64,000 bases of DNA, from positions 1-64,000 of the IMG/VR virus record IMGVR_UViG_3300007276_000045, one strand, 5' to 3'. The translations under genes were made by a program, and so were the position numbers. The DNA comes from a virus. This document shows, piece by piece, positions 3,495 to 60,584 of this stretch; the first letter of the stretch is position 1; every line of letters begins with the position of its first letter. The notes under the pieces are model-generated. The model made no database searches and was not told where the DNA came from. It saw only the letters and a list, made by a program, of their open reading frames with translations.

Positions 3495-3503
3495 CTATTA
3501 TAG
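3495..3503. promoter_or_regulatory. Divergent CTATTATAG promoter element
   Basis: CTATTATAG on the plus strand is CTATAATAG on the minus strand. It is the only AT-rich box in the 16-nt gap between two divergent genes. On minus, TATAAT ends 6 nt before the ATG at 3490; on plus, TATTAT ends 5 nt before the ATG at 3507. Neither gene has a Shine-Dalgarno site here, so both transcripts would be leaderless if the usual box-to-start distance applies. Confidence 0.55.
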
Positions 3504-3506
3504 ATT

Positions 3507-3863
3507 ATGGGGAAAAAAGTACATTACATAGATAACAAAAGATTTGAAGAAATTATCCCCCTCTACCTACGAAACCCTGAGGCTTACGAGGATGAGTTGA
3601 TGGGACTGTTCGATCTATTGATCACGAATATTATAGGAAGCTTCAAGTTTAATATCGACAAAGAGGACGCAAAACAAGAATGTTTCTTGCTGGTCCTAAA
3701 GACGTTGAAGAATTTCAAACCGTCTAAAGGATCTGCCTTTAACTATTTTACGACCGTCATTGTCAACAACCTCAAACTTCTATACACGAAGAATAAGAGG
3801 TATGAAAACAAACTCTCCGAGTATGGAGATATACTGGGTGATCAGAGACCCAGTTGCTTATAG
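3507..3863 (+). CDS. gp55-like sigma factor for late transcription (sigma-70 region 2-like)
   Basis: 118 residues. The core (about 45-105) has KEDAKQECFLLVLKTLKNF followed by KGSAFNYFTTVIVNNLK and a basic helix, LLYTKNKRYENK. This matches sigma-70 region 2 helices as kept in phage gp55 late sigma factors: an acidic-aromatic core-polymerase binding helix, then the NAFxYFTxxI-type -10 recognition helix. T4 gp55 is longer (185 aa), so this is a short form. Its likely role is directing the host RNA polymerase to short -10-type late promoters, which fits the recurring CTAT(A/T)ATAG elements in this window. Its 3' end overlaps a convergent gene by 22 nt. A generic sigma-like protein is the alternative. 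Confidence 0.65.
   Translation: MGKKVHYIDNKRFEEIIPLYLRNPEAYEDELMGLFDLLITNIIGSFKFNIDKEDAKQECFLLVLKTLKNFKPSKGSAFNYFTTVIVNNLKLLYTKNKRYENKLSEYGDILGDQRPSCL
3834..3853. terminator. Possible hairpin at a convergent gene junction
   Basis: CTGGGT and ACCCAG flank an 8-nt loop at the overlap of the gp55-like gene (+) and the 108-aa gene (-). The stem is 6 bp and no U-tract follows on either strand, so termination is only a possibility. Confidence 0.25.
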
Positions 3864-4168
3864 ACCATCGACAGGTAGTCCTCGGACTCCATACTCCCGC
3901 GCTTAAATTGCACAAGATGCGGAACCTTCGATGTCTTAAAGATGACAAATGCGTGAGGCATCATAAAGCTGTTCACCACATAAAGAGGCTTTAGTTTACG
4001 ATTAACCGGGCCGTCCGTCTTCATCCCTCGAACCTTTTCAATCAGTTCCTTGGAATGATCGTCCCACAGGGAGACAAATAAGACACCCATATCCTGCTTA
4101 GTCTTCCTCTGATTCCTAAGAATCTTATTCAGTTGATTCTCAGTACGAATGAATACAGGTGAGTACAT
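3842..4168 (-). CDS. Small protein, possibly thioredoxin-fold
   Basis: 108 residues. VLFVSLWDDHSKELIEKVRG resembles a first strand and helix, and PLYVVNSFMMPHAFVIFKTSKVPHLVQFKRG resembles the cis-proline strand pair of thioredoxin-like folds. There is no CxxC, so no redox activity would be expected. It starts by a one-base TGATG overlap with the 118-aa gene and is probably co-translated with it. The 3' end overlaps the gp55-like gene, which reads towards it. The fold is a guess from pattern only, and no function is assigned. Confidence 0.5.
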   Translation of the reverse strand: MYSPVFIRTENQLNKILRNQRKTKQDMGVLFVSLWDDHSKELIEKVRGMKTDGPVNRKLKPLYVVNSFMMPHAFVIFKTSKVPHLVQFKRGSMESEDYLSMVYKQLGL

Positions 4169-4524
4169 CAGTCCTCTACAATATCGACGTTTCCACTTGC
4201 AGTAGCTTCGTCAATGCCGACGAGCTTACCCTGATCGTCAAAGTTGAACCCTGACGCTTCATAGTCCTCACGGTTCTGTTCCATATGCTGGACCATGTTC
4301 GTGGTGAGTTCCTGCTCCAAAGCACGGATGCCATGGAAAAAGAGGGACCGTACAAAGTCGGTCATTCCGAGATCAGTAGGCTTAACAGCGTTTGCAAAGT
4401 TGCGGAAGGCTTCAGCCTCCTCCTGATTGAGTTTGAGTTGGAACTTCATTCTATTTTTACTCCGATAGTCGATTTTGATATTCCACCCCTCAGGATGGAA
4501 AGCGAATTTCAAGTCGTTAGACAT
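4168..4524 (-). CDS. Hypothetical protein, possible ribbon-helix-helix-like core
   Basis: 118 residues, not recognised. The stretch MKFQLKLNQEEAEAFRNFANAV, then TDFVRSLFFHGIRALEQEL (about 25-75), looks like a short strand followed by two helices, which would fit a ribbon-helix-helix DNA-binding core. The C-terminal 40 residues are acidic and probably disordered. The gene starts 13 nt after the TATAAT core of the promoter at 4536-4544 and is the first gene of a two-gene unit with the thioredoxin-like ORF. Regulation of neighbouring genes is possible but not shown. Confidence 0.5.
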   Translation of the reverse strand: MSNDLKFAFHPEGWNIKIDYRSKNRMKFQLKLNQEEAEAFRNFANAVKPTDLGMTDFVRSLFFHGIRALEQELTTNMVQHMEQNREDYEASGFNFDDQGKLVGIDEATASGNVDIVED

Positions 4525-4535
4525 TATTGATTGCT

Positions 4536-4544
4536 CTATTATAG
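4536..4544. promoter_or_regulatory. Divergent CTATTATAG promoter element
   Basis: A second copy of the palindrome-like box lies between divergent genes starting at 4524 (-) and 4563 (+). On minus the TATAAT core is 13 nt from the ATG. On plus the TATTAT core is 20 nt from the ATG, with a GAGG purine run in between. Confidence 0.5.
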
Positions 4545-4562
4545 TAAGAGGTTTAAGAAACT

Positions 4563-5081
4563 ATGAATGATAATTACGATTTAAGTAAGCTTCGCAAAAA
4601 ACCTAAGCGGAAGAACAGCAGGACCAAAGGTAACACCTTCGAACGGCAGATTGCCAAGCTACTCAATGATAGATTCAAGACCGAAGAATTTTCAAGAAGT
4701 CCGGGATCTGGTGCATTTGCCACCACCCATACTCTACCTGAACACCTAAAAATTTATGGAGACTTGATTACTCCACAGAAATTTAAATTCTGTATTGAAT
4801 GTAAAAAAGGATACAATAATCAAAACTTATATAGTTTATATAATTATAGTAGCGACATCTGGAAGTTTGTAGAGCAATGTGAAAAAGATTCTGGAAAATG
4901 TAGCAGACTACCCATGGTCATCTTTAAGCAAGATAGACAGCCAACATTAGCCATTGTTCCCTATGATGTAGAGTTCGGACAAGATCTCAAGTACATAGAG
5001 GTTATGAAGCAGAAGAAGTACAGGATCTATTTATTTGATGATCTTGTTAAGTGCTGGGACCATTGTTGGTTTGATGCATGA
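4563..5081 (+). CDS. Holliday junction resolvase-like PD-(D/E)XK nuclease
   Basis: 172 residues with a basic N-terminus (KLRKKPKRKNSRTKG). Glu27 lies in TFERQIAKLLNDRF, followed by SRSPGSGAF, YGDLITP (Asp67) and FCIECKKG (Glu79-Cys-Lys81). This E...GD...ExK arrangement with an S-x-G loop is typical of archaeal-Hjc/VRR-type junction resolvases and related phage nucleases. T4 relatives need an endonuclease VII for branch removal before packaging. None was seen in the window, so this protein could do that job (inference). Its end overlaps the convergent 848-aa gene by 35 nt. Confidence 0.65.
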   Translation: MNDNYDLSKLRKKPKRKNSRTKGNTFERQIAKLLNDRFKTEEFSRSPGSGAFATTHTLPEHLKIYGDLITPQKFKFCIECKKGYNNQNLYSLYNYSSDIWKFVEQCEKDSGKCSRLPMVIFKQDRQPTLAIVPYDVEFGQDLKYIEVMKQKKYRIYLFDDLVKCWDHCWFDA

Positions 5082-7593
5082 GCTTTTCTAATAGCTCTCT
5101 CTGACCTTTGAGGAAGGTTATAAACAACTCTTCTTCCTCAGCACTCTTATCTTCGGACAATACATTTCGATGACCAGACTTTGTACCCATAGTCCACTTC
5201 TGGTTACCTCTTGCAGTGTCACAAGAAACTAAGGTGTCCCCGGTCTTCCTATCTACTAGTTTGATGGTTCCCCCTCCTCCGTATTCGAAGTAGGCTTTAT
5301 TGTCTTTGATCTTTTGCAGGTTATCTTCCACAACAGCATTGTTTAGATACACACTTTGGTAACTATCACCCAACCCTCTAGTGACCCTTAAGGTCTCCTC
5401 CATACTTCCAGCAGCTTGGCTGTAGCACATTGTTGCCCAAGACTTCCACCCTTCATCCGTTACTTCGCCTTGTGGCATTTCTTGTTTTAGAACTTCTTGC
5501 TGAATATCCTGCTTCACTTTTGCCAGCGCATCCAAATCTTCCTTAGTAGCGTTAGGTCTCATAGCCCTCTTAGCTGCTTCAGCCCTTTCTTTATTTTTAG
5601 GACTCTGCTGCTTCTTCTCAAACCAAGTGTTGATCCAAGCGTCAGACATCTCTGGAGTAACTCCCAATGATCCGGGAGTTAGTAATCTATCGAACTCCGC
5701 AGTCTTCTCATCAATCTCTTTTTGTTTAGCGCAGCCAGCTTTTTGAGTTCCTGCTCCCGCACAGGAATTTAATCTTTTTGAGTTACGCTTTGCAAAGTCC
5801 TTTGTGCCTTGAGTCATGCCACCCGGTACATCACTGCCAACAGTTGCATTACCGCAAATAGCTTGGGTTCTACTACTTGATATCTCACCCACACCCCCCT
5901 TACTTTTTGAATCGGTAAGAGTTTTTAGCTCTACCTCCATGACGCAACCCCCTCCTTCGGTTGGAGTCAGCATGTTTTTAACTCCAGAACCTTCTCCCCC
6001 ACAACCATTCTTAGGGGTTCCTCCAAGCTTCTTTTCATAAGAAGCAGCAACCTTGTCACAGTCCTTATCAAACTCGAACTTAAGATCAGCTTTTGCCCCA
6101 GAATCGGTCATGTTTTTGTCCCCTTCGTGGGTAACCTTGGTTGGGATAAGATCTGGATCGTCACCGAAAAGCTGCTTGTCAAAGGTTTGGTTAACGAATG
6201 AAGTAACAAGGATAGACATCATGAGTTGCCTATCCGATGGCGTAGATGCCTGTTCAATGAAAGCCTCAGCCTTCTTTTCGTCCATCCCCATCTCCTCAGT
6301 TAGCACTCGCTGACATTCAATAACAAATTGGGCATCCTCGTAAGCGGCTTCCCCTTTTGCTAAAAGCTCCCCTAGCGCAACCGACCTACCTACAGAAAAA
6401 GTTTCCATCATTTGATCGTAGCTGCCATCACTAAGTGCATCTTCATAAGTATCGGAGATACTTTGCCGCATTTCATGGAGAGCCTTCTTCTTCTCTGCAC
6501 CAGTCTCAGCTTGGGCGAACTTCGCTTGCCCCCTCATGATGTTCGCAGAGATGGTCATGAATTTCTCTGCTACTGGACCACGGTAAGACTCATTTACACC
6601 CCCTGTTTTCGCAGGAGATTCAGGAGGTTTTGCGACAGGAATTTTATACTTTCTCTGATCCTCATCTGGTAGATTCTCTAGTTGTTTGTTATACCTCTCA
6701 GCTTCGTTATTAAGCTGATCAACCATATTCCTAAGAGCATCATTTTTTGGAGAAGACTTCTCTCTAAACTGGAATCCGATGCCCCTAATAAGAACACCCC
6801 CGCGAGTAATAGTAATAGACTCAAGAAGCTTGCCTAGTTTCTTAGCTTCGGCCTCACTCATAGGCTCTTCACTACCTGCTCTTCCCCGTAACTGCCTGAT
6901 AGATAAGTCAATTTGTTGAAGACCTTCTAGTGCTCCAAGCTTTTCTTCTGGGGAAAGCTTATCTGAATTAAACACTTGCTGCTCTAACCTTTCAACGTCC
7001 CCGAAAAAACCTTTGGTCTGTCCTGCGGCTACGTTTGCAAGGGAATCAATACCTCTACCTCTCTTCTCTTCCAGACCGGGTGTGATACCTGCCATTTGTG
7101 CAAGCTCTCTAAAAGAGGTTACTACTTTCTCTGTTAGGTCTTGTACTTGCTTGATCATAGCCAAGCCTTGATCATCTCCACCTTCGCCTTCTTGCCCCTC
7201 TTCACCAGTGTCGCCTTGGTCCTTGGTGTCGCCTTCTTCCTCACCACCACCTGCCCATGCTTTCACTAATTTGTTAGCATTACTATTTTCTTTTTGCCAA
7301 GAAGTAGCCAAGCTTCCGATCTGAGAGCCACTAAGTTTAATTCCCCAACCTGAGAGATTGCTTCCAGTAACACTAACACCTTTTCCTTTGGTTACTTCAA
7401 CACTTAAATTTTTACCGTTACCTAAGCCCTCTTCTTTATGGCCCTCTTCTTCATTACGAATTCGGCCTAATTCAGTAGCTACATCGTTTGCTACCGAAGC
7501 TAGATCAGCCGCTTCTTCCTCACGCAAAGAGAGTCTAAATTTTCTGCGCTTTAACTGTTCGTAATTTTCTAAGAGTGAGTAGTAGTAATCCAT
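5047..7593 (-). CDS. Large protein of unknown function, possibly a virion or ejected protein
   Basis: 848 residues, unrecognised. The N-terminal 25 residues are basic (YEQLKRRKFRLSLREEEAA). Residues 100-145 are an acidic Gly/Glu run. Long helical stretches rich in Glu/Lys/Gln follow, and a region of about residues 515-640 holds several Cys in Gly-rich sequence (GCGGEGSG, GGGCVME, AICGNA, NSCAGAG, KAGCAKQ). No signal peptide or transmembrane segment is evident. It lies just after the tail tube gene but behind a strong terminator and under its own CTATAATAG promoter, so it is expressed as a separate unit. Size and position suggest an internal or structural protein; that is inference. Confidence 0.75.
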   Translation of the reverse strand: MDYYYSLLENYEQLKRRKFRLSLREEEAADLASVANDVATELGRIRNEEEGHKEEGLGNGKNLSVEVTKGKGVSVTGSNLSGWGIKLSGSQIGSLATSWQKENSNANKLVKAWAGGGEEEGDTKDQGDTGEEGQEGEGGDDQGLAMIKQVQDLTEKVVTSFRELAQMAGITPGLEEKRGRGIDSLANVAAGQTKGFFGDVERLEQQVFNSDKLSPEEKLGALEGLQQIDLSIRQLRGRAGSEEPMSEAEAKKLGKLLESITITRGGVLIRGIGFQFREKSSPKNDALRNMVDQLNNEAERYNKQLENLPDEDQRKYKIPVAKPPESPAKTGGVNESYRGPVAEKFMTISANIMRGQAKFAQAETGAEKKKALHEMRQSISDTYEDALSDGSYDQMMETFSVGRSVALGELLAKGEAAYEDAQFVIECQRVLTEEMGMDEKKAEAFIEQASTPSDRQLMMSILVTSFVNQTFDKQLFGDDPDLIPTKVTHEGDKNMTDSGAKADLKFEFDKDCDKVAASYEKKLGGTPKNGCGGEGSGVKNMLTPTEGGGCVMEVELKTLTDSKSKGGVGEISSSRTQAICGNATVGSDVPGGMTQGTKDFAKRNSKRLNSCAGAGTQKAGCAKQKEIDEKTAEFDRLLTPGSLGVTPEMSDAWINTWFEKKQQSPKNKERAEAAKRAMRPNATKEDLDALAKVKQDIQQEVLKQEMPQGEVTDEGWKSWATMCYSQAAGSMEETLRVTRGLGDSYQSVYLNNAVVEDNLQKIKDNKAYFEYGGGGTIKLVDRKTGDTLVSCDTARGNQKWTMGTKSGHRNVLSEDKSAEEEELFITFLKGQRELLEKLMHQTNNGPST

Positions 7594-7600
7594 GTGTAGT

Positions 7601-7609
7601 CTATTATAG
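7601..7609 (-). promoter_or_regulatory. CTATAATAG promoter for the 848-aa gene
   Basis: CTATAATAG on the minus strand; its TATAAT core ends 9 nt before the ATG at 7593. It follows directly on the U-tract of the upstream terminator, so the -35 position falls inside a hairpin. This fits a -10-only (late-type) promoter. Confidence 0.6.
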
Positions 7610-7644
7610 AAAAAGCCCAGCCCAGATAGTTCTAGGCTGGGCTT
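7610..7644 (-). terminator. Rho-independent terminator after the tail tube gene
   Basis: On the minus strand, AAGCCCAGCC and GGCTGGGCTT form a 10-bp GC-rich stem with a 12-nt loop, followed by TTTTT. It closes the capsid-neck-tail unit that ends with the tube gene. Confidence 0.85.
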
Positions 7645-7671
7645 AGAATTTACTTATCTAGTTGTAATCTC

Positions 7672-8280
7672 TTAGACCGTGCTTGCAAGAGCACCGCCGT
7701 AGCCAGTATCTTTACCTACATGCTCCATGAAGTCATAGCGGAGTCCAAGTTCGATAGTATGGAATTCGTTAGTAGAGTAGTTAAACTCAGCAGTCTTCCA
7801 AGACTTGGGGTAAACTCCAGTCAACCGAGTTTCATACAGAGGTTGTCCTCTGGAATCCAGATGAACAATAATCGCTCTGCCCTTAAAGGTGTTGGGTTGC
7901 CCCCCTTGACCTTCGGTATGGAACTTACCCGTAGTGGGATCGTAGATCGAAGAGAACCACTGCCACAAGGCATTCGAAACACTCTTGTTGTAGAAGTTGT
8001 CAAAGGTAACCGTAAGCTCCTCAGGCGAAGCCTTACCGGGGTAGAAGACCTTATCGTTAACACGGTTAACTTCGATGTCCTCTACTGTCATGCCGACCTG
8101 AGAGACTTGCTTTGCAGCAAGAGTTAGGTCAGTAGGATTTGCTTGATTTACCAGACTCGGCATGTCAAGAAATTGAATCTCGAACTGGTATGCTCTTACA
8201 GAATCCAGTCCTTCCGAGATGATGGGCTTAATACTTCCCCTATTGGTTTCGGAAGAGACGTAGGTTGCTTTTTGTGCCAT
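7672..8280 (-). CDS. gp19: Tail tube protein (gp19-like)
   Basis: 202 residues, near the size of T4 gp19 (163 aa) with extra N- and C-terminal segments. AYQFEIQFLDMP, then VSQVGMTVEDIEVNRVNDKVFYPGKAS and ELTVTFDNFYN, is the beta-barrel pattern of contractile-tail tube proteins. The later LTGVYPKSWKTAEFNYSTNEFHTIELGLRYD is the characteristic closing strand pair. It stacks into hexameric rings forming the inner tube. It follows the sheath gene with an 11-nt gap and an AGGAG site, as in T4 gene order, and a strong terminator lies after it. Confidence 0.93.
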   Translation of the reverse strand: MAQKATYVSSETNRGSIKPIISEGLDSVRAYQFEIQFLDMPSLVNQANPTDLTLAAKQVSQVGMTVEDIEVNRVNDKVFYPGKASPEELTVTFDNFYNKSVSNALWQWFSSIYDPTTGKFHTEGQGGQPNTFKGRAIIVHLDSRGQPLYETRLTGVYPKSWKTAEFNYSTNEFHTIELGLRYDFMEHVGKDTGYGGALASTV

Positions 8281-8291
8281 AGTTATTTCTC

Positions 8292-10475: not shown

Positions 10476-10487
10476 TTAAATTATCTC

Positions 10488-10664
10488 CTATGCGTTTTTG
10501 ATCGAGATTAGACTTCGTTGTTGATATCTAATAACATCGTCAGTGATATACGAAGCAGGGACTTGAATACTCTGCTCTGGAGCTAAATAAAAGCTTTTAA
10601 CACCTTCTTCAGTTTGTAAATAGATGTTCCAGCTTTGTAGACTAGTGTTGGTGAGTCGCTTCAT
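10488..10664 (-). CDS. Small conserved-looking protein upstream of the tail sheath
   Basis: A 58-residue gene found by reading the gap between the gp15-like and sheath genes: start MKRLTNTSLQSWNIYLQ, end RSLISIKNA. AAGGAG lies just upstream of the ATG at 10664, and its TAG stop is part of the GGAG of the sheath gene. The sequence alternates polar and hydrophobic residues, with a central FYLAPEQSIQVPASYITDDV, suggesting a small beta-rich fold. Its position between tail terminator and sheath suggests a neck or tail accessory protein. Function is not known. Good start and stop signals make it a likely real gene. Confidence 0.75.
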   Translation of the reverse strand: MKRLTNTSLQSWNIYLQTEEGVKSFYLAPEQSIQVPASYITDDVIRYQQRSLISIKNA

Positions 10665-10707
10665 ATCATTATCTCCTTAGTATTTACTCAACTTGTGAGG
10701 GTTTTTA

Positions 10708-14927: not shown

Positions 14928-14938
14928 AGTATTTTTCC

Positions 14939-27230: not shown

Positions 27231-27857
27231 TTAGAAGTTTAACGTCCACTTAAAAATTAACGAGAAATCGTCTGTTTTTGTAATATTTGTAAAGGGCCTA
27301 TACGCCACCAAGTTAGATCGGTAAGTCGCATTACCCAGAGGGTTTTTCATAAACAGACCCACCTCATTTAAAGGCTCCGTTAAATCGTTACAGGAGTTTC
27401 TGTCTATGTAAAGTATATAGGTGACTGAGTTCAAATCCACTCGTTTGATTGCATTATCAGAAATAAGTGGGAATACCCAAGTATCACTGCCGTCAGAGTT
27501 GTCCTTGGGGGTACCGTCCCAGTCCATTAATTGGTGAGTCTCCACAGGCAATTTTGAATCACCGTTGGTATTGTAATCAGTGGTTCCGTTCTCCTGACCC
27601 AGCGCAGATGCTAGAAAGCTCTCGGAGACCCCGTAAGTGCTAATTTTATCATCCCCACCCACGCCTAGTTGGAAATATCTAACTTGAAAATTATCTACAG
27701 AGGTGGCACCTGACCCAGCATAAAGAAGCCCCAAACCAACTCCCATCCCAGAAGTAATGGTATTTGCTTCGTCAAAAAATAGTTCCTCATCGCCGCTCTC
27801 GTAAACTTTATAAATTTCCAAGTGGCCTGATACGTCAATAATGTCTGAGTTTTTCAT
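27231..27857 (-). CDS. Virion protein, tandem paralogue 1
   Basis: 208 residues. VSGHLEIYKVYESGDEELFFDEANTI at the start, and NEVGLFMKNP with AYRPFTNITKTDDFSLIFKWTLNF at the end, match the next gene closely (ISGHITICKIYKDGT...ANMI; TEVGLFSKNP; EFSLIINWSIGF). The middle differs, as in surface proteins under diversifying selection. It has its own CTATAATAG box 9 nt upstream. Location beside the beta-helix protein suggests a fibre or receptor-binding component. Function unknown. Confidence 0.7.
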   Translation of the reverse strand: MKNSDIIDVSGHLEIYKVYESGDEELFFDEANTITSGMGVGLGLLYAGSGATSVDNFQVRYFQLGVGGDDKISTYGVSESFLASALGQENGTTDYNTNGDSKLPVETHQLMDWDGTPKDNSDGSDTWVFPLISDNAIKRVDLNSVTYILYIDRNSCNDLTEPLNEVGLFMKNPLGNATYRSNLVAYRPFTNITKTDDFSLIFKWTLNF

Positions 27858-27864: not shown

Positions 27865-27873
27865 CTATTATAG
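27865..27873 (-). promoter_or_regulatory. CTATAATAG promoter inside the baseplate/fibre operon
   Basis: A minus-strand CTATAATAG fills the 16-nt gap between paralogues 2 and 1; its TATAAT core ends 9 nt before the ATG at 27857. It would let the beta-helix and following genes be transcribed apart from the baseplate genes. Confidence 0.5.
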
Positions 27874-39506: not shown

Positions 39507-40726
39507 TATGCTGTGTATGGTCCTCCACCAAGACTGTCGTTGATTCTAACCTGAGGTCCACCATCAATGGTAACCACTCCTCCGTTAATGTCAACTGCGC
39601 TCTGTCCATTAATTTGTACTTCTGGGCTGTTAATCTCCACCTTCGTATCGCTCTGTAGTGTAAGCTTTCCAGCGGCAACAACGTCAACGCTGCCCCCACC
39701 ATCAATTATGATTCTAGAGTTTTGTCCCGGAGTATTTATATAGATCACTGAGTCATCTTCTTTTGCTTCGAGAGAAATGTTGTTATGATGACTCACCAAT
39801 TGAATGCACCCAGTGGTCTGATTTCCAAAGACCCCTTGGCGACTAGCCTTATACCCGCCTACTCCCGGATCTCCAAGCTTGGTATGCTTCTGGGCACCAT
39901 ACTCTTTAGACCCTGTAGACTTGTTTTCGATCTGCATATTCAAACCATCTTCTACCCAAATATGAAATCTGTTAAATAGGGTGTACATATTAACAGGACC
40001 GTGAGTACGCATATGGTATTCCCCCTCTGCAAAGGGGCTTTCTGGGCTAAGGCCAGTGCTCCAAATGAAGAAGTCCTTACCCCTGTGCTCGTTTGTCATT
40101 ACAATACCGTCAACGACTGGGGAGTCAACAGCTTGAATACGTTTACCATTTCCACTCATGATACCAATGGCATAATCTTGGAATGGGTCGGCAGATTCAG
40201 AAGTTGAGTTGTACCTATCGGTAATCTGGAAAGCGTCACCTCGGTGGTTAGTAAAGCCTAGCTGCTCAGGGATTACACCCTTTCCATCATACATTCCTTT
40301 GAATCTTTCAGGAATCCAACCTAGGTTTTCTTTAGTGGAGACTGCTACCTGATCTTCTGCTAATCCCGGACCATGCTGTCCCGGTTTGTTTTTTGGCACA
40401 TACTCAGTGCTGGGCGTGGCTTTCTTATTTGCAAAATTTCTATCTTGTTGGTTGTTCCCCTCAATAGCTCCCATAACAGAACCCAGATAAAAGTAACCCT
40501 TAAAGTTATCTCCATCTAATGCTGCGTTTGGTTCATACCCTACCAAAACTTGAGCACCTACAGGTGGTAAAAAGAACGCACCTTCCTTGGAGTTTCCGTA
40601 AGGAGACACATACCTGACATTCTCCACAATAGCTCTACCCTCTTCAACGGGTCCAAACGAGACCTTAAATAGACCTGTTCTGGAGATGTCTGCTTTTGAT
40701 TTTACTGTTCCAATTTTAAGATCCAT
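39506..40726 (-). CDS. gp5: Baseplate central spike protein (gp5-like, no lysozyme domain)
   Basis: 406 residues. The N-terminal 90 residues (GLFKVSFGPVEEGRA, FFLPPVGAQVLVGYEPN) form an OB-fold as in gp5/VgrG. The last 120 residues are repetitive strands (VYINTPGQNSRIIIDGGG, VEINSPEVQINGQSAVDINGG) of the trimeric beta-helix needle. T4 gp5 has a lysozyme between these parts; here the middle shows no recognisable lysozyme, so peptidoglycan digestion must be done elsewhere. It acts with the hub gene just upstream and the PAAR tip. Confidence 0.85.
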   Translation of the reverse strand: MDLKIGTVKSKADISRTGLFKVSFGPVEEGRAIVENVRYVSPYGNSKEGAFFLPPVGAQVLVGYEPNAALDGDNFKGYFYLGSVMGAIEGNNQQDRNFANKKATPSTEYVPKNKPGQHGPGLAEDQVAVSTKENLGWIPERFKGMYDGKGVIPEQLGFTNHRGDAFQITDRYNSTSESADPFQDYAIGIMSGNGKRIQAVDSPVVDGIVMTNEHRGKDFFIWSTGLSPESPFAEGEYHMRTHGPVNMYTLFNRFHIWVEDGLNMQIENKSTGSKEYGAQKHTKLGDPGVGGYKASRQGVFGNQTTGCIQLVSHHNNISLEAKEDDSVIYINTPGQNSRIIIDGGGSVDVVAAGKLTLQSDTKVEINSPEVQINGQSAVDINGGVVTIDGGPQVRINDSLGGGPYTA

Positions 40727-43470
40727 CAGTCATCCTCATTGGGTTTCGCAAGCCCCTTGTTTCCGGGTCTTGATAGGTAGAAAGTAGATTTAGCAGACTG
40801 CGCTGAAATTGAATGCTTAAACCCAATCATATTATAGATGCCACTAAACCAAGTAGTATTGCCTTTATAGCTTTCTTGGGGATTATTTGGGATAGTAATT
40901 CTAGGTTCCACACAGTGAACAACACACGCCTTATTTAACACTCTTCGATCTGTGGATAAGGCAAACATAGGCAAAGTGCTAATGTTTCCATTCAAAGCCA
41001 TCTGGTTAATATTTTGTGTTACACGAACACTATTTGCAATCGCTGCCTTACTGGGATTCTTTGAAGGAGTAACCTGCTCCATGGTGGGCTTAGAAGCTTT
41101 GTATAATTGAGAAAATGCTTCCCACATAAATTTCATGAACTTTTGTTTACCATCCAAACCGCCGAACCAGTCACTTGAGAAAGACTTGTCAGACATGTTC
41201 TGATACTTATCGGAGTCTAATTGATCGAAAACCTCTTGCCACTGCTCGAAGTTTTGGATATCATCTCCACTGAGGTAATCGTGGTCGTAGTAATTTTCCA
41301 TCAACTTTTCAAAACCCCTAGGCACTTTTGTCTCAGGGTCAACGTCAGTCAGATCTAAAGTTGCAATGCCCTTAAATATGCGTGCAGCCTCGGCTTCAAA
41401 GCCAGCAGGGATCATACCTGCTACGCCTCCAAAAGCCTGCCTTCCAATCGGGCTTGAGGAGTTCATTGCTGCAATATACTGATTGTCTAAATTAAAATTA
41501 ACAGATAAGATATTTGGGTTCTTATTTCCAAAGCTAAACAATGGCATTCGAGAAGCTAGTAAAGGATTAGCTTTTTTCGCATCCTTGGAAGCGTTCTGTA
41601 AGTTTGTATCTGCTGGGAAGGTAGCGTCTAATTCGTTACTACCATTGTACTGTTTTCCAAAGGGGCCAATCCAACTAGTAGGAACAAAGTAATCGAACAC
41701 ATCTTTAGCAAACTCTGAATTAAGACCTCGTAGCTGATCCAATCGGTGAACGTAGTCGGTTAGTTTCTCATCAACGTAGGCTAATAGGTCACCTGTGTCT
41801 GCAAAAGAAGCATCCTTTATAGTTTGCTCCTCTGCATCTGCGTCTTGTGCCTTTGCTCTAGCCTTAGCAGTTGTTTCATAAACTCTACCATATAAAACTT
41901 GATCTACAATGTTTCTTTCGCCCCATAGAAGAACAGGCTGTCTATTATTAGTAATTAGACCTTTTTCAAATAAAATCTGAATAAGGTTGAAGTCGGTAAT
42001 AACATTAACCTGATTCATAAACTGAGTGGGGATGGCTTTATCGTCTGGAGCGTATTCAGCCATCTTGTTTGCGATGGCCTTACCTACCTCACTTAGAGTC
42101 TGTAGGAAGGTCTTCTTAGGAATTTCAGTTTGTAGAACTGCTCTGTAGTGATTCTTAGCAAACCAATCTGTTACCTTATCAGCAGATCCACACTCCTCAA
42201 TATACTCAAAAACATTCTCTCCGATAGCTCCTGTGAAGTTAGAATCTGATCCCGTATCAACCTCACACATACCTAATCCTATACCCTCCAAACACTTGGA
42301 ATATCCTAGCACATCATCCGCTAAATCTTTCCAACTGCCGGGATTGGGGGCACCGAAGTCCGTCATCCCTAAAGTAAGAACCTCCCCTACGGAGGCGTAT
42401 ACACTATCTTGCATCTCAGCGTAATACCCCTGCAAATAGAAGTCTAAGTCTGGCATGAAGACCAAGACGTTTTCAGATTTATTAGTCGCTGATCTAATGA
42501 AATTTTCTATAGCTCCAACTACGGCCCAGTGAAGGCTAGGCTTAAAAGAATTACCGTCCCCATCGAAACTTAACCCCTCCTCAACTTCACTCCTCTCCGA
42601 AGCTTGAATTTGGTAGGTTTTTACAAACTCATCTGCCTCCTTCTTAAACCCTTCCTCACTGAATAGTCTAAATTTTGAAACACCCTTACATAGTAATCCT
42701 TTATTAAAGTTAATACCAAGAGGACTAACTCCGAGTTGGGTCAAGTTAGGATGAATACTTTTTCCAGTAAAGTGCATAGTTAAAGTTCTAACACCATCGC
42801 CTGTAAACCCATAATCAATTCTAAGAATTTTTCCGAAGCACTGCACAGGTGCCCAGTCCTGCAAGTTGCTCCCTATACCATAGGTGATATACACCTGCCT
42901 TTGCATCTTACCCGTATAAGCTTTTAATTGATCTTTAATAGATTGATTTTTATCATCATCATCTAATACAGAAGTATTTGCAATCTCTGTTTCTATTGCA
43001 TCAAGCTTATCTTCAAGTTTTGTGCGTTCCTGTTTGAGATCCTCAAGATTCTTCTTTGGACCAATATAGTTTTTCCTTTGGGCATTTTCTTGGTCTTTCT
43101 TTAATTGAGCAAGTTCATTGTCAGCTAAAAACTTCTCAGACTCTAAAGCCTCTAGACGCTGTAGGAATGGGTCTGATTTAATATCTAACTGCATCCCCAA
43201 GCTATTGTCTAACATCTCACTCTCAAAAACACCTTGTGGGTCCATGATCTTTAGTTTCATTTGGTTATCAGAATCTCCTCCACCAAATGAATGAACCAAA
43301 TCCAGAAAGTTTGAATTCGGAGCATTAGAGAAGATCATGGTTTCTCGTTTCTTACCATCGCTCTGACTATCAATAAACTTTTTAAACGAACCAAAATCCT
43401 TAGTGTTCTGGAACGCGATCATTGCTTCAGGGTCGTAGCTAACTACGATGTTGGCAGCAGGGATATACAT
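40726..43470 (-). CDS. Baseplate hub protein (gp27/gpD-like) with coiled-coil insertion
   Basis: 914 residues. The N-terminal 225 residues show a hub-like barrel, FLDLVHSFGGG, NQMKLKIMDP, then VYITYGIGSNLQDWAPVQCFGKILRIDYGF. It is interrupted at about 105-170 by a charged coiled coil (LEALESEKFLADNELAQLKK...LEDKLDAIETEI). The long C-terminal part is mixed. It precedes the spike gene, as hub proteins do. The ATG at 43470 is 5 nt from the TATAAT core of a promoter and lacks a Shine-Dalgarno site. The hub call is from position and pattern. Confidence 0.65.
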   Translation of the reverse strand: MYIPAANIVVSYDPEAMIAFQNTKDFGSFKKFIDSQSDGKKRETMIFSNAPNSNFLDLVHSFGGGDSDNQMKLKIMDPQGVFESEMLDNSLGMQLDIKSDPFLQRLEALESEKFLADNELAQLKKDQENAQRKNYIGPKKNLEDLKQERTKLEDKLDAIETEIANTSVLDDDDKNQSIKDQLKAYTGKMQRQVYITYGIGSNLQDWAPVQCFGKILRIDYGFTGDGVRTLTMHFTGKSIHPNLTQLGVSPLGINFNKGLLCKGVSKFRLFSEEGFKKEADEFVKTYQIQASERSEVEEGLSFDGDGNSFKPSLHWAVVGAIENFIRSATNKSENVLVFMPDLDFYLQGYYAEMQDSVYASVGEVLTLGMTDFGAPNPGSWKDLADDVLGYSKCLEGIGLGMCEVDTGSDSNFTGAIGENVFEYIEECGSADKVTDWFAKNHYRAVLQTEIPKKTFLQTLSEVGKAIANKMAEYAPDDKAIPTQFMNQVNVITDFNLIQILFEKGLITNNRQPVLLWGERNIVDQVLYGRVYETTAKARAKAQDADAEEQTIKDASFADTGDLLAYVDEKLTDYVHRLDQLRGLNSEFAKDVFDYFVPTSWIGPFGKQYNGSNELDATFPADTNLQNASKDAKKANPLLASRMPLFSFGNKNPNILSVNFNLDNQYIAAMNSSSPIGRQAFGGVAGMIPAGFEAEAARIFKGIATLDLTDVDPETKVPRGFEKLMENYYDHDYLSGDDIQNFEQWQEVFDQLDSDKYQNMSDKSFSSDWFGGLDGKQKFMKFMWEAFSQLYKASKPTMEQVTPSKNPSKAAIANSVRVTQNINQMALNGNISTLPMFALSTDRRVLNKACVVHCVEPRITIPNNPQESYKGNTTWFSGIYNMIGFKHSISAQSAKSTFYLSRPGNKGLAKPNEDD

Positions 43471-43472: not shown

Positions 43473-43482
43473 TATATTATAG
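43473..43482 (-). promoter_or_regulatory. CTATAATATA promoter before the hub gene
   Basis: Minus-strand CTATAATATA; the TATAAT core ends 5 nt before the ATG at 43470. It overlaps the last codon and stop of the gp53-like gene. It is a variant of the common CTATAATAG box, and its start geometry suggests a leaderless hub mRNA. Confidence 0.45.
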
Positions 43483-50575: not shown

Positions 50576-50738
50576 GCTTTTCCTCTTCTATTTCTTGGCT
50601 GAAAAACTCTAAGAACGCCGACCGATCCGCTCGGCTCATGTCCTTTACGTCCGCATAGCTGAATCTGACATGCTTCACAAGTATATAGGCTTCATGAAGC
50701 AAGTCTTTTAAATTAAAAGACTCAGCTATTTGCTCGAA
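50544..50738 (-). CDS. C-terminal extension of the gp26-like chaperone by -1 frameshift
   Basis: Directly after a run of eight T on the minus strand, the -1 frame stays open for 64 codons to a TAG at 50544, reading FEQIAESFNLKDLLHEAYIL and ending in RASQQHSNRR. The frame has no good start of its own (the only ATG is mid-frame), and the text is protein-like with a helical profile. The zero frame stops two codons beyond the slip. A shifted product would have 317 residues instead of 256. This arrangement is typical of tail assembly chaperones (P2 E/E', lambda G/GT). Confidence 0.65.
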   Translation of the reverse strand, partial: FEQIAESFNLKDLLHEAYILVKHVRFSYADVKDMSRADRSAFLEFFSQEIEEEKRASQQHSNRR

Positions 50739-51496
50739 AAAAAATCCGCTGTAATCGGTAGCTCCATACTTTCAACATGATCGCAGTATGAACAGGCAAA
50801 TCTCACATTAGTATCAATGCCATAATTCGTGCAACCTAATGCTTCCATAATAATGTGAGCATCTTTGATAGGTAATTGAGGAACTACCTTAGAGATAACA
50901 GATTTAGCATCGTATCCTCCAATGCTAACAATAAATCTCCACAAGTTATTTAGTGTGGTCTCTGAGTTAGTAAAGTATCTTTCATCTTCAACACGCGGAA
51001 TCTTAACAACTACCTCCTTTTTTAGGATAGGCAGTTGGACTTTCATGGGATTGGTAAGCTCTTCATCAGCGTAATTAACATTAAACGTGTCCAGTGCAAA
51101 CACTACATTGTTTTCCGACTTACAACTTGGGCAGTTAATAGTAACATGGTAGTTTGGTCCGTAGGAAATCTCTCGTAGCTTCATTAGCATGTAGAGTTTA
51201 TCCATCTGCAAAAGCTGTGCAATGTCAATATTGGTCACACACCTAGCCAGTAGCTTATTAATGATATCACTCCCCCCGTCTTTCTTAGACAACATGCTCT
51301 TTTCATCCGCAAAACTCATTGGGCGCATCGTAATTGGCATACTAGGGTCTTGAAGAGTGTAAAAACGGTTCTTTGAAGGAAGGTCTACCTCGATAGCATC
51401 GTTAGATGGCATCTCTTTCAAGATATCATCAATAATAGACTGGTCACCTTGGGGGAACTTCGTCTCTTTTGGATTTGGGTTGGTTGGTTCTGACAT
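50726..51496 (-). CDS. Baseplate hub assembly / tail chaperone protein (T4 gp26/gp51-type)
   Basis: 256 residues. PITMRPMSFADEKSMLSKKDGGSDIINKLLARCV and QLLQMDKLYMLMKLREISYGPNYHVTINCPSC match the T4_baseplate-type family (gp26/gp51). Two CxxC pairs (NCPSC and ACSYC) frame a zinc-ribbon-like segment before the C-terminal ITADFF. It is probably a chaperone for the tape measure or hub and not a virion part. An AGGAG site precedes the ATG, 35 nt from the divergent promoter. The C-terminal codons contain the T8 slippery run. Confidence 0.75.
   Translation of the reverse strand: MSEPTNPNPKETKFPQGDQSIIDDILKEMPSNDAIEVDLPSKNRFYTLQDPSMPITMRPMSFADEKSMLSKKDGGSDIINKLLARCVTNIDIAQLLQMDKLYMLMKLREISYGPNYHVTINCPSCKSENNVVFALDTFNVNYADEELTNPMKVQLPILKKEVVVKIPRVEDERYFTNSETTLNNLWRFIVSIGGYDAKSVISKVVPQLPIKDAHIIMEALGCTNYGIDTNVRFACSYCDHVESMELPITADFFSSK
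50737..50744 (-). promoter_or_regulatory. Slippery T8 site for -1 ribosomal frameshift
   Basis: In the zero frame the message reads GAT TTT TTT TCG, so T-TTT-TTT fits the X-XXY-YYZ heptamer exactly. The -1 frame then continues for 64 codons. Downstream, AGTCTTTTAATTTAAAAGACT forms a possible stem (AGTCTTTTA with TAAAAGACT) about 10 nt after the slip, which could stimulate shifting. Confidence 0.65.
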
Positions 51497-51530: not shown

Positions 51531-51539
51531 CTATAATAG
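51531..51539. promoter_or_regulatory. Divergent CTATAATAG promoter element
   Basis: CTATAATAG on the plus strand lies between divergent genes at 51496 (-) and 51544 (+). On plus, TATAAT ends 6 nt before the ATG of the helicase, whose start is fixed by homology. On minus, the reverse box (TATTAT) is followed by a leader with AGGAG. Confidence 0.55.
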
Positions 51540-51543
51540 TCTG

Positions 51544-52920
51544 ATGAAGATCCATATAAACACTCTAAAATCTAGGATAGAAACGGATAACCAATCTCTC
51601 CTTGATGCGTTATATAGCCTATACTCTGAAAAAACTCCCGGATACCAATATTCTCCCGCGTACAAGCGGCGACAATGGGACGGGAATATGCACTTTATCA
51701 CTAAAACAGGCACATTTAGGACTGGATTGTTAAATAAGGTGTTAGAAGACCTTGAGAAGATTGGTTGTACACCTGAGCTTTGCTATGAAAATGCACAAAA
51801 AGTGGACACTTCTACACAAAACTACGAAATTGATAACTTTTCCTACTACTCGTACCAAAAAGAGCTAATTGAAAAAGGTTTAGAGGAACAGCGCGGAATC
51901 ATAAAATCCCCTACAGGGTCTGGAAAAACACTAATTATGGCTGGATTGGTTAAAGCACTGGCTGGAAGGAAAATGGTGCTTCTTTTTAACGCAAAACAGC
52001 TACTTACACAAAGTTATGATTTTCTTACTAAAACTTGTGGGATGGATAATATTGGCCTTTGTTTTGGTGAGGGTTATATTTACGGTGATATTATGCTTTG
52101 TACTGTCCAGAGCATTGAAAAAATTCTAGACACGCACTTGGAAGAAGCCGAAGTTTTGATGGTAGATGAGTGTCATGAGTTTGGAAACGGCAAGACTACA
52201 CTAGCTGCCCTACAAGCCTTCCCTAAGGCCCTGTATCGCTTTGGGTTCACCGCAACGCCACCATCCGACAAGATACCCAAGTTGAACCTAGAGGGTGCTC
52301 TAGGGCCTGTGTGGGCCTCTGTGGAGACTGCTGGTCTTGTGGAGTCAGGAAAGCTCACTAAACCCATTATTCAACTGATTGATAGACCTTACACGGCAAG
52401 TGGGGCAGACGAAGATATGTCCTATCTTGAGGCATATGATGAGTACATTGTCTATAACGAAGATAGGAATAATATAATTAAGGATGTAGTTAATGAAATT
52501 AGAAAAAACAACAAACAATCTCGCATACTTATACTTACCAAATCACTTGATCATGGAAGAACCTTGGAGGAGTTGCTTGGAGACGGGCCAGTTCAGTTTC
52601 TACAGGGTGAAAACTCGCTCGGAGACAGGTATCAGAGTATTGCTAAGTTCCTCGGACATAAAGAATCTAGTGTCCTTATTGGCACTAAAATTCTCCAAAC
52701 AGGAATCAACATTGAGGAAATCACCCACTTCATTAACGCAAGAGGGATGAAGTCTGAAATAGCAACCCTACAGGCTCTGGGAAGAGCCTTACGCCGACAC
52801 GAATCTAAGGACAAAGTATTTGTATACGATTTCTTAGATAAAGAAAAATACCTTCGCGAGCACTCTAATGCTAGACGAAGGCACTACAAGAAAGAAGGAC
52901 ATGAGGTACGCACAATATGA
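51544..52920 (+). CDS. uvsW: UvsW-like SF2 DNA helicase
   Basis: 458 residues (T4 UvsW is 503). The N-terminal GYQYSPAYKRRQWDGNMHFI matches the UvsW entry domain (GYKFSPKFK...WDG). Helicase motifs are I SPTGSGKT, II VDECHEFG (DExH), III FTATPP, a motif-V-like IGTKILQTGINI, and VI QALGRALRR. It remodels branched DNA and R-loops and helps switch from origin- to recombination-dependent replication in T4. The N-terminal family match requires the start at 51544, so the promoter-to-ATG distance is real. Overlaps the next gene by 4 nt (ATGA). Confidence 0.93.
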   Translation: MKIHINTLKSRIETDNQSLLDALYSLYSEKTPGYQYSPAYKRRQWDGNMHFITKTGTFRTGLLNKVLEDLEKIGCTPELCYENAQKVDTSTQNYEIDNFSYYSYQKELIEKGLEEQRGIIKSPTGSGKTLIMAGLVKALAGRKMVLLFNAKQLLTQSYDFLTKTCGMDNIGLCFGEGYIYGDIMLCTVQSIEKILDTHLEEAEVLMVDECHEFGNGKTTLAALQAFPKALYRFGFTATPPSDKIPKLNLEGALGPVWASVETAGLVESGKLTKPIIQLIDRPYTASGADEDMSYLEAYDEYIVYNEDRNNIIKDVVNEIRKNNKQSRILILTKSLDHGRTLEELLGDGPVQFLQGENSLGDRYQSIAKFLGHKESSVLIGTKILQTGINIEEITHFINARGMKSEIATLQALGRALRRHESKDKVFVYDFLDKEKYLREHSNARRRHYKKEGHEVRTI

Positions 52921-55317: not shown

Positions 55318-55320
55318 TTA

Positions 55321-57105: not shown

Positions 57106-57122
57106 TTCTAACTCCTTGTCTT

Positions 57123-57131
57123 TTATAATAG
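57123..57131 (-). promoter_or_regulatory. CTATTATAA-type promoter for the acidic head-region gene
   Basis: Minus-strand CTATTATAA is 19 nt from the ATG at 57105, with an AAGGAG site between. A leadered version of the recurrent box, in the 50-nt gap after the portal gene. Confidence 0.45.
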
Positions 57132-57155
57132 ACCATGTTTATATAGTAAAGCTAC

Positions 57156-59033
57156 TTAGATATTATTTTGGGGATTTCGTACATTTCTGTTCATAACCCT
57201 ATCTAACGCTTTTGTTTTAGTGGAACCGCTACCAGATTCAGAAATTATTTTCTTCTTAAGTCTAGCAAGAGCGGCATGAGTTTTGGGATCAATGGATTCC
57301 TTCTTAGGCTTGGCCTTTTCGACTTCCATTTGTCTTTCAGCATCAGCCTGTTTAGAACCTTCATCACGGTCAGCATCAGCGTCCTTACCCTTCTGCTCGC
57401 GATCCATGTCCTTGTCTTTGTTTTGTTGGTCAAGACCAGACTGCTGTTCAGCCTCTCCCTGCTGATCTGCTGCTTCCTCTTCTTTCTCTTTCTTAAGCTC
57501 CTCCTGCATCTGCTGGATTTGCTCCTCAGTCATGTCGTAGAACTCTTTATAGATGGTAGATTTAGGAAAAATACCTAAGCCCACAACTGCCTGTACTACG
57601 CGAGCTTTTTGCTCATCAATTTCCATTTTTCTCTTAGTAAATACATCACTAGGGTCTGGAAGCTGGATACGAAGTTCTTTAAACATGCTGGCTGGGTAAC
57701 CTACAAGAGCAAGGTGTCTACGAGCAATCTGCTCTAAGCCCATCTCCATTTGCTGTTGAACGCGACTAATAACGCGAGCAAACTTAGCATCTAATTGTGA
57801 CAGGTTCGCCTTACGCTCAGGGGACTTATCCTTCTCAACAATGTAATCCTTCGGAACCTTCAGTGCAGCCAGAAGCTTATCACGGAAGTACCTTACATCA
57901 TCAACCTCACCTAAGTTTTGTGCGCCGGGGAGCGTGTCAATCTTAGTGCCTTGGTTTCCTCTTGTGGGAACGAAAAAGTCCTCATCAGCACTAAGTGGGT
58001 TGTAGCGAGAATCAACAGTGCCATCATTAGCGTTGTAGTATTTTTCCTTCTTGAACTTCTCCTTTACCTTTTCGATGAACATCTCAGCTTTGGTAGCTGG
58101 CATGTTGGCAACGTCAATGTAGAAAATTCTTCTTTCAGGTGCTCTAGCTAGACGGTAGATAAGCATCGCATCTTCCATAAGCTTGAGAGAGCGGAATACT
58201 CGAACAGCTAGGGCTGCAATAGACTTACCGTATGGGTAGAATGCAGGGTCAGAAGTTCTAAGCCTAAAGTGTACAATCTGGTTTCTATCTAAAGTGATAT
58301 ACTTAGAACTAGCCATATTACCAGCCATGCTACCAAATGCTTGCCAATCATTATCCTCTGGAATCTCTTGCAAGAAATCCGTAAGGTAGCCGTATTCATT
58401 CTCCACCCGAATAATAAAGTTAGGGTTTAGAACCTTTAGCCTTTGCAATCCTCTTTTTGGATGATTAACATCGAGAACCGTTTCGATAAAGCAGTCCCCA
58501 TATTTGCAGGTATTTCTGATGATATCCCAGTAGTCCCTATCTAGCTGAATCTTCTTGAAGCACTTATTTACCTCATCCACAACCATCTGGCTATCAGCAA
58601 GAACAGTCCATCTCTCGTTACGCAGATTTTTTTGAGTCGAATCGTCAGCATAGATATCAAATGCAACCCCGATTTCGGGATAATCATCCATCTCCTCATA
58701 CTTTGTATAACGCTCCCTCCTGTTCTTCTCCAGTTCAGGAAGCTGCAATGTGGTCCTACTAAGAGCACCAAGAGCGGGGAGAGTATCGGGCTTGACAGTA
58801 TCGACATTCTGTACCGTGTCTCCAGCTAGGGTGGCTTGAGGAGTTACCCCATCATCTGCCTGCTTTGCCATATAAGGCGCAGCCTTTGTAGCAAAGAATC
58901 TAGCGAGGAATTGGCCTAACCGACCTGACGGCCAGAAGTAAGGACCAGTGTTACTATCAGGTGTGTTTGAGAATTTAGTATTGCCGATGGCATCCTCATT
59001 TAACTTGTCTTCGTCTTTTATTTCATCAGCCAT
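57156..59033 (-). CDS. gp20: Portal protein (gp20-like)
   Basis: 625 residues (T4 gp20 is 524). RYTKYEEMDDYPEIGVAFDIYADDST, YGDCFIETVLD, YPYGKSIAALAVRVFRSLKLMEDAMLIYRLARAPERRIFYIDV, YNPLSADEDFFVPTRGNQGTKIDTLPG and NLGEVDDVRYFRDKLLAALKVP are all gp20 landmarks. The last 110 residues are a Gln/Lys/Glu/Asp-rich low-complexity extension that T4 lacks. It forms the dodecameric DNA gate. It overlaps the terminase end by 16 nt, so the two are co-translated. Confidence 0.96.
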   Translation of the reverse strand: MADEIKDEDKLNEDAIGNTKFSNTPDSNTGPYFWPSGRLGQFLARFFATKAAPYMAKQADDGVTPQATLAGDTVQNVDTVKPDTLPALGALSRTTLQLPELEKNRRERYTKYEEMDDYPEIGVAFDIYADDSTQKNLRNERWTVLADSQMVVDEVNKCFKKIQLDRDYWDIIRNTCKYGDCFIETVLDVNHPKRGLQRLKVLNPNFIIRVENEYGYLTDFLQEIPEDNDWQAFGSMAGNMASSKYITLDRNQIVHFRLRTSDPAFYPYGKSIAALAVRVFRSLKLMEDAMLIYRLARAPERRIFYIDVANMPATKAEMFIEKVKEKFKKEKYYNANDGTVDSRYNPLSADEDFFVPTRGNQGTKIDTLPGAQNLGEVDDVRYFRDKLLAALKVPKDYIVEKDKSPERKANLSQLDAKFARVISRVQQQMEMGLEQIARRHLALVGYPASMFKELRIQLPDPSDVFTKRKMEIDEQKARVVQAVVGLGIFPKSTIYKEFYDMTEEQIQQMQEELKKEKEEEAADQQGEAEQQSGLDQQNKDKDMDREQKGKDADADRDEGSKQADAERQMEVEKAKPKKESIDPKTHAALARLKKKIISESGSGSTKTKALDRVMNRNVRNPQNNI

Positions 59034-60556
59034 CTTATATCTTCCTCTAATTCTTGGTTAACCGCGTCATGGACAGTGGACCTCATAGGTTCTGGAGGTC
59101 TACGTTCTTGTTCTTCTAGGCTATCTTTCATCTCTAAGGGACCACTCCCTGCTAATGTATGTAGTAAAAATATAGAAATTGAAAGGCTCATAATTAAATC
59201 ATCATGCTTGCCTTCATCAGCAGTAATCTTTCCATTATCGTCAACAATAAAAGTTAGAAGCTCCTCCACAGTTCTTTTAGAATTAATTTTAATAAAGTTG
59301 TTTCGAATGTATTCTTCCATCCTAGCTAGAAGTTCCTCACGGTTCCTCGTCGTGACCTGAATACCAAAATCGTTTTTATCATCAATCCATAGATTGTCAT
59401 ACTCCATAACATTGAACATCCAATCAATCAGGTTGTTGCCGATTGTGTTCCGCTCAATAATTACGGATGCATTATTATATAGATTAGCTTCGTTAGTTAA
59501 AATTTGAGCAAGTTCATTAATTGGGGTTTTATTGGAGTAAAATTCCGCAACTTGCTCACCTGTGTAGGCATTAAAAATATGAAAAGCGGAATTATCCCGT
59601 TCCCTACCTAAGCTCACATCTACCCCAATCACATATTCGTGCTCTGGGCTAGGGTCTTTCCAGACCCGCATCTTATTATTGTACTTAATCCAGTAGTCTT
59701 CGTTCTGCTCCTCTACCAACCTAGTGAGTAGGTAACCCTCCAAATAGGTATCACCTGTACCGAGGAACTCACACTCATACTCTTGAAGCCACTGCTTTAG
59801 GGGCATGTTAGCTTTTGTAGTTTTTTCCCAATCATCTACATGAAGATCTTTCTTTTCCATCTCATCGTAAAGAAAATCAAACCCCTCCATCCGTTTATAC
59901 TCAGGGTGGGATTCCCAGTTAATGTCAATAGCGTTGAAGGAGTTCTCCTTTGCTAAGGCTTTGTGATACACATCATAATACCAATTGCCAATACCATTAA
60001 CGGTAGAAAGGACAAAAGCCCTACCTCCTGTGGAGATAATTGGGTATACAGCAGCCCAAATAGTGTCAATGTTTTCAATGAAAGCAGCCTCGTCAATAAT
60101 TAGAAGGGAGCCAGCTAGGGAGCGGCCTGATTGCTTGCCTGATGGGCGAGACTTGATTGAAGAGCCTGTGGCTAACTTCATGGTATGTTTGTTATCTTCA
60201 ACTAACTTAGGTCTTAAGAACACGGGAAGTTCTTCGTACATAATTTTAATACGATCCAGAACCTCCGTTGACTCAGCATCACCTTTTGACAAAATAACTA
60301 CTTGCTTGTGTTTCTGGAACACGATCATCCACAAGGCATACGCAGCCGAGATCGTAGTGCAACCAGCCTGTCGGAACTTTCTTAGAATATTAAACCGATG
60401 TTCTTGCAAACATTTTAAAATATCCGTTTGAAAAGGGTATAACTTAAAGGGGACAAGACCACGAACGGGGTGAGTGACCTTGATGTAGTTAGAAATAAAA
60501 TAACTAGCATCAGCCCTACACTTCTTAAACTCTTCTACTAATTCTGCTTGTTCCAT
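59018..60556 (-). CDS. gp17: Terminase large subunit (gp17-like)
   Basis: 512 residues (T4 gp17 is 610). ILRKFRQAGCTTISAAYALW is the Walker A region, with Cys where GKT would have Lys, so the deviant Walker A with the basic residue earlier is used. Walker B is LLIIDEAAFIE; the coupling motif is VLSTVNG. The nuclease domain has VIGVDVSLG, ASVIIERNTIGNNL and the C-terminal KHDDLIMSLSI. It cuts and pumps DNA into the portal. A CTATAATAG box lies 21 nt upstream. No small terminase subunit gene was recognised beside it. Confidence 0.95.
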   Translation of the reverse strand: MEQAELVEEFKKCRADASYFISNYIKVTHPVRGLVPFKLYPFQTDILKCLQEHRFNILRKFRQAGCTTISAAYALWMIVFQKHKQVVILSKGDAESTEVLDRIKIMYEELPVFLRPKLVEDNKHTMKLATGSSIKSRPSGKQSGRSLAGSLLIIDEAAFIENIDTIWAAVYPIISTGGRAFVLSTVNGIGNWYYDVYHKALAKENSFNAIDINWESHPEYKRMEGFDFLYDEMEKKDLHVDDWEKTTKANMPLKQWLQEYECEFLGTGDTYLEGYLLTRLVEEQNEDYWIKYNNKMRVWKDPSPEHEYVIGVDVSLGRERDNSAFHIFNAYTGEQVAEFYSNKTPINELAQILTNEANLYNNASVIIERNTIGNNLIDWMFNVMEYDNLWIDDKNDFGIQVTTRNREELLARMEEYIRNNFIKINSKRTVEELLTFIVDDNGKITADEGKHDDLIMSLSISIFLLHTLAGSGPLEMKDSLEEQERRPPEPMRSTVHDAVNQELEEDIRWLMK

Positions 60557-60575
60557 GATTGTATGCTAACTTTTA

Positions 60576-60584
60576 CTATTATAG
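60576..60584. promoter_or_regulatory. Divergent CTATTATAG promoter element
   Basis: One box in the 31-nt gap between terminase (-) and glycosyltransferase (+). Plus TATTAT ends 5 nt before the ATG at 60588; minus TATAAT ends 21 nt before the ATG at 60556. Confidence 0.55.

Follow-up and report, generated by a model that had tools for sequence, protein, structure and literature searches.

A nine-base, near-palindromic sequence, CTATWATAG, recurs between genes of an uncultured marine virus, and its position beside start codons, often between diverging genes, raises the question of whether so short a box can act as a promoter, and for both flanking genes at once. The window analyzed here is the whole stretch of DNA from base 1 to base 64,000 of a 72,734-base virus record. 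Its PHROG matches include tail sheath, tube, portal, a T4-type major head protein, protease, terminase and a split T4-type DNA polymerase, and the virus is therefore a distant T4-like myovirus; no listed phage of the collection exceeds ∼37% identity in the sheath. Among viral contigs, we found 134 relatives of the major head protein and 259 of the sigma gene that adjoins the first box. The DNA polymerase (872-3490, minus strand) is made up of three adjacent ORFs (337, 159, and 377 aa), and their matches to PHROG 17 cover successive parts of the model. From the sequence analysis below, we consider it likely that the box is the -10 element of a class of phage promoters that lack a -35 element, are read by a phage sigma factor, often give leaderless transcripts, and are symmetric where divergent genes share them.

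Exact copies of CTATWATAG occur six times in the window (Table 1), at the coordinates of the original prediction. Dinucleotide shuffles gave an expectation of 0.77, in line with the one chance copy previously estimated from base composition, and none of 100 shuffles reached six. Among odd-length 9-bp palindromes of the window, CTATWATAG is the most over-represented (6 versus 0.70 expected), and it is absent from the other 8.7 kb of the record. As had been claimed, all six copies are intergenic and four stand alone in divergent gaps; the window's six divergent gaps sum to 282 nt (0.44%), which gives a P value of ∼6e-9 for four of six boxes. Many copies inside genes had been named as evidence that would count against the prediction, and a search of the window found no exact copy inside a gene. 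Matches with at most one mismatch, exact ones included, numbered 27 versus 17.9 expected, which is barely above chance, so that position alone counts for the near copies. The one listed at 57123 was correctly placed, and those listed at 43473 and 63293 were one base off, as they begin at 43474 and 63294. The copy at 43474, CTATAATATatcATG, stands in the same register as the exact boxes; those at 57123 and 63294 are farther from starts, which have their own Shine-Dalgarno sequences. A different palindrome, GTATSATAC, is found at 34131, 39250, 49284, and 50214 (4 versus 0.35 expected) and was dropped as a further element, as all its copies lie within genes.

Table 1. Boxes and neighboring features in the window
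Feature	Coordinates	Strand	Context
DNA polymerase piece	2477..3490	-	Start 4 nt from box (CTATAATAGacggATG); PHROG 17, E 3e-40
Box CTATTATAG	3495..3503		Divergent gap, DNA polymerase piece (-)/gp55-like sigma (+); fills the 16 nt separating the start codons
gp55-like sigma factor, 118 aa, region 2 only	3507..3863	+	Start 3 nt past box
Conserved 118-aa protein	4168..4524	-	Start 11 nt from box; 3-4 nt in many relatives
Box CTATTATAG	4536..4544		Divergent gap, 118-aa gene (-)/RusA-like resolvase (+)
RusA-like Holliday junction resolvase	4563..5081	+	Start 18 nt from box; PHROG 244, E 1.3e-25
848-aa protein behind the 7601 box	5047..7593	-	No PHROG match
Box CTATAATAG	7601..7609	-	Tandem gap, 7 nt ahead of 848-aa gene start
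Intrinsic terminator hairpin	7613..7644	-	Closes the preceding operon; T tract enters the 7601 box
208-aa gene, head of a long structural gene run	27231..27857	-	No PHROG match
Box CTATAATAG	27865..27873	-	Tandem gap, 7 nt ahead of 208-aa gene
914-aa gene behind the 43474 one-way form	40726..43470	-	Homolog in G003 has CTATAATATAAATATG
One-way form CTATAATAT	43474..43482	-	3 nt ahead of 914-aa gene start; lacks the terminal G
Baseplate hub protein	50726..51496	-	Start 34 nt from box, own Shine-Dalgarno; PHROG 150, E 1e-20
Box CTATAATAG	51531..51539		Divergent gap, baseplate hub (-)/DNA helicase (+)
DNA helicase	51544..52920	+	Start 4 nt past box; PHROG 16, E 8e-71
Terminase large subunit	59018..60556	-	Start 19 nt from box; PHROG 2, E 1e-45
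Box CTATTATAG	60576..60584		Divergent gap, terminase large subunit (-)/glycosyltransferase-like gene (+)
Glycosyltransferase-like gene	60588..61268	+	Start 3 nt past box; Pfam PF13712, E 4e-16

In 35 reassembled contigs, 59 of 75 boxes were outside called genes, and gene gaps accounted for 57 of these. Divergent gaps held 30 and tandem gaps 25, and 16 lay inside called ORFs, part of which probably reflect over-extended start calls. Control palindromes of like composition were 63 to 100% in-gene in the same contigs. The box between the conserved 118-aa gene and the resolvase is present in about 40 diverse relatives, and that between the helicase and the baseplate hub is retained in relatives down to ∼48% helicase identity. 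Sites of the 7601 type have a 3-nt box-start spacing in relatives, and homologs of the 848-aa protein (788 to 994 aa) have CTATAATA 11 nt from the start. The AT richness of the window and the adjacency of the boxes to start codons might suggest an artefact of chance or composition, or else a translation signal unrelated to promoters, but the shuffle statistics, the mostly in-gene controls, the conservation in dozens of contigs, and a placement that is equal on the strand opposite to the reading frame leave this explanation next to no probability. At 7593-7644, a start codon, a promoter box, and a terminator hairpin are packed within ∼50 nt.

We then considered the spacing between box and start codon. 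Across the loci compared, an ATG followed exactly 3 or 4 nt downstream in 60 of 164 box orientations, versus a flat distribution for control palindromes of the same composition. Upstream of 1,191 distinct gene starts, CTATAAT was the most enriched 7-mer at 12 to 13 nt, above Shine-Dalgarno words, and, in the genome of the window and in almost all groups of relatives, TATAAT or TATTAT was most frequent with its first T 11 to 12 nt from the start. Gene starts were taken from ORFs; the N terminus of the sigma is conserved from residue 1. A -10 hexamer (TANNNT) ∼12 nt upstream of the start codon is an accepted sign of leaderless genes in bacteria (PMC3160421), and both hexamer and distance recur here, in this case in a phage, in two promoter classes, and with divergent start codons sharing the hexamer. 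With the first T at this distance, many box genes should be leaderless, with +1 falling on the start codon or close to it. Not all would be, since at several boxes one flanking start is 11 to 34 nt away. At tandem sites of three relatives (G041, G044, and G049) with a 6-nt gap, the upstream TAA would sit inside the TATAAT of the next box, so that stop, promoter, and start would overlap.

The symmetry of the box varies with gene orientation. Among leaderless-type starts without a -35 element, to which this comparison was limited, the palindrome was completed by its 3'-terminal G at 40 of 49 divergent sites versus 9 of 34 tandem sites (Fisher P = 9e-7). Because relatives are not independent samples, the fair value is that obtained by gene family, where the G averaged 71% in 7 divergent families and 22% in 20 tandem families (P = 0.011). 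Tandem sites retain C-TATAAT-A, which indicates that the one-way promoter would be CTATAATA and the palindrome two overlapping copies of it; the view of the box as a palindrome per se was rejected, since the final G is missing at tandem sites. The pattern is best read as symmetry that follows two-way use, for which the terminal G is the strongest sequence evidence.

Dyad symmetry beside start codons would also suit an operator, through which a dimeric phage regulator would repress or activate the genes on either side. A possible regulator is the 118-aa product of 4168-4524, whose family is conserved next to a nearly invariant box and is predicted to fold as strand-strand-helix-helix. However, the dyad is lost at tandem sites while the -10 core and the fixed start distance are retained, the core is identical to a -10 hexamer, and no regulator fold was found for this protein. 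It had no match in Pfam, PHROG, or PDB despite its strand-helix-helix look, and we did not retain it as a known regulator. We regard the operator as very improbable.

Two-way use is clearest, on the promoter reading, between the DNA polymerase and sigma genes. In 41 of 48 distinct polymerase/sigma gaps of relatives, the start codons are separated by only 13 to 16 nt, which hold the box or a near match to it; in 39 of the 48, the sigma start lies 11 nt away from the first T. The distance between the two start codons in the window (3490/3507) is 17 bp. In bacteria, two-way -10 promoters are established, and their divergent starts are preferentially spaced by 18 bp (PMC10268837, PMC12825309); as sequence geometry, a symmetric -10 with opposite starts ∼18 bp apart is what the gap presents. 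The box of the sigma gene itself varies in some groups (CTATAACA, CTATGATA). A search for co-variation between sigma and box revealed no clear co-change, and the other genes inspected in G041 and G044 retain CTATAATA.

Alternatively, each box might drive one gene of a pair, in which case its symmetry would simply follow from sequence preference and the other gene would be expressed from elsewhere. Several gaps have one start 3 to 5 nt from the box and the other at 11 to 34 nt with a Shine-Dalgarno sequence, and the half-sites differ in strength because one direction must read TATTAT. This explanation appears improbable, given that the terminal G is retained mainly in divergent gaps and that the polymerase/sigma gap has no non-coding room for another promoter and has both starts in register.

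To define what reads the box, we compared its surroundings with those of host-type promoters. At 67 box sites, the mean best mismatch to TTGACA was 3.51, versus 3.52 at control positions, and a hidden -35 element within the opposing gene was discarded as its signal was not above control. Host-type promoters, TTGACA-N16/17-TATAAT mostly with TGG or TGT before the hexamer, are absent from the 64-kb window and number 22, on one strand, in the 8.7-kb tail beyond it. They form an array (G000:C1:64983-72256, L085) of near-identical TTGACA-N17-TGGTATAAT sequences heading short plus-strand genes, and in 16 of the 22 an ATG follows exactly 6 nt after, i.e., at +1. These tail sites look like early promoters of host sigma-70 that are leaderless as well. 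The base before TATAAT is C at box sites versus TGG/TGT at the host-type promoters. As the latter are separate from the boxes, the virus carries two promoter classes, which makes the attribution of the boxes to a gp55-type sigma plausible. The genes behind boxes are mixed (polymerase, sigma, resolvase, helicase, terminase, baseplate, and a structural operon); together with the C before TATAAT and the lack of a -35, this points toward a reading factor specific to the phage. The original promoter reading was supported in part, by the behavior of the box as a -10 element placed beside start codons, by the lack of a -35, and by the association of symmetry with divergence; it had missed the leaderless spacing, the C-TATAAT-A core, and the host-type class.

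The main rival holds that the boxes are read by host sigma-70 polymerase and that the phage sigma acts at different sites. In its favor, the core matches the sigma-70 -10 hexamer perfectly, and this hexamer is capable of two-way transcription in bacteria (PMC10268837); two relatives (G047 and G048) have one CTATAATAG each with a proper -35, TTGACA, 16 to 17 nt upstream; and the box of the sigma gene must be read before the sigma exists. Against this, boxes in general show no -35 signal and carry C rather than TGG/TGT before TATAAT, and the two promoter classes occupy separate parts of the genome. We judge reading by host sigma-70 unlikely, and the best inference is that the gp55-like sigma reads the box.

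The claim that the window encodes a gp55-like sigma was supported in that its 118-aa protein is a remote relative of gp55. The protein matches Pfam Sigma70_r2 (E = 1.3e-5, 25.4 bits versus a cut-off of 24) and, weakly, PHROG 234 "late sigma". Aligned by hhalign with seven gp55 sequences of T4-type phages, it scored a probability of 72.5 and an E value of 3.2e-5 over 87 columns, which include the N-terminal HYIDNK/HYVDNK. A sequence search of PDB gave no match. An AlphaFold model (pLDDT 85) matches sigma region 2 folds, and T4 gp55 (7D7C chain F) is among its PDB structure matches, weakly (TMq 0.66, Foldseek E = 0.28). The chain ends shortly past region 2 and has no region 4, the -35 recognition domain, within its 118 aa; a -10-only promoter class fits such a phage sigma. 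Searches for gp33 and gp45 (Pfam PF16805, PF02916) gave no match in 12 related records, which are fragments and whose proteins may have diverged.

We propose that the box, with C-TATAAT-A as its one-way core and no -35, would most likely be opened by host RNA polymerase together with the small gp55-like sigma. Transcription would start ∼7 nt past the last T of TATAAT, at many sites the A of the start codon, and would then yield leaderless mRNAs. Between divergent genes, the core would close into CTATWATAG, readable as a -10 on either strand, so that one 9-bp box could serve two genes, most clearly the DNA polymerase and sigma genes 16 nt apart. In this scheme, we infer where transcripts begin, that they are translated without a leader, that a box fires both ways, and which sigma factor reads it. 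A stronger version, which we advance tentatively and hold to be possible rather than probable, is that with a region-2-only sigma of 118 aa, no -35, and perhaps no gp33 or clamp, the 9-bp box may be a complete two-way promoter whose transcripts both begin at start codons; the regulatory region would then measure 13 to 16 bp, and the sigma would drive its own gene and replication.

The proposed promoters share with the late promoters of T4 a -10-only element, the lack of a -35, and a phage-encoded gp55-type sigma. The box had been said to differ from the T4 late consensus, and indeed TATAAATA was dismissed as the motif of this virus for want of positional enrichment, CTATAAT being enriched instead. 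Compared with TATAAATA, CTATAATA has a TATA core shorter by one base and is often symmetric. In the T4 late region, the box is 22 to 36 nt from the start of the directly following gene, leaving room for a leader and a Shine-Dalgarno sequence, versus 11 to 12 nt here. Between T4 genes 26 and 51, overlapping opposite late promoters, TATTTATAAATA, occupy a divergent gap (L270:46455-46466; matches at 46455/46458). Bacterial bidirectional promoters, described by Warman, Grainger and colleagues, likewise have overlapping -10 readings on opposite strands, with a preferred start distance of 18 bp versus 17 bp between the polymerase and sigma start codons here. They are read by sigma-70 and their second transcript is often non-coding, whereas conserved genes lie on both sides here and the sigma is seemingly supplied by the phage. 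The late promoters of phiKZ (TATG) are also very short phage elements close to the transcript start but are read by a phage multisubunit polymerase rather than a gp55-type sigma (PMC5312081). The parts are thus of known kinds, and their combination, compactness, and conservation look new; no report of this combination was found in the literature searched, in which subscription journals were mostly outside reach.

If correct, these would be among the smallest divergent promoters known, with two genes, their promoters, and their translation starts within 13 to 16 bp, conserved across a widespread group of marine viruses. They would extend gp55-type late transcription to leaderless mRNAs, which suggests that the hosts translate leaderless messages well, and the motif could serve to annotate starts and operons of these uncultured viruses. 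Because divergent and tandem copies of the same genomes differ at one base, they also provide a natural and conserved case in which to test whether selection for two-way firing underlies symmetric -10 elements. A relative of the group, with a sigma 64% identical, is carried on a 130-kb contig (G066:C3, L253) filed under the single-cell genome Prochlorococcus sp. AG-409-P03, a filing that is only a hint as to the host of one branch.
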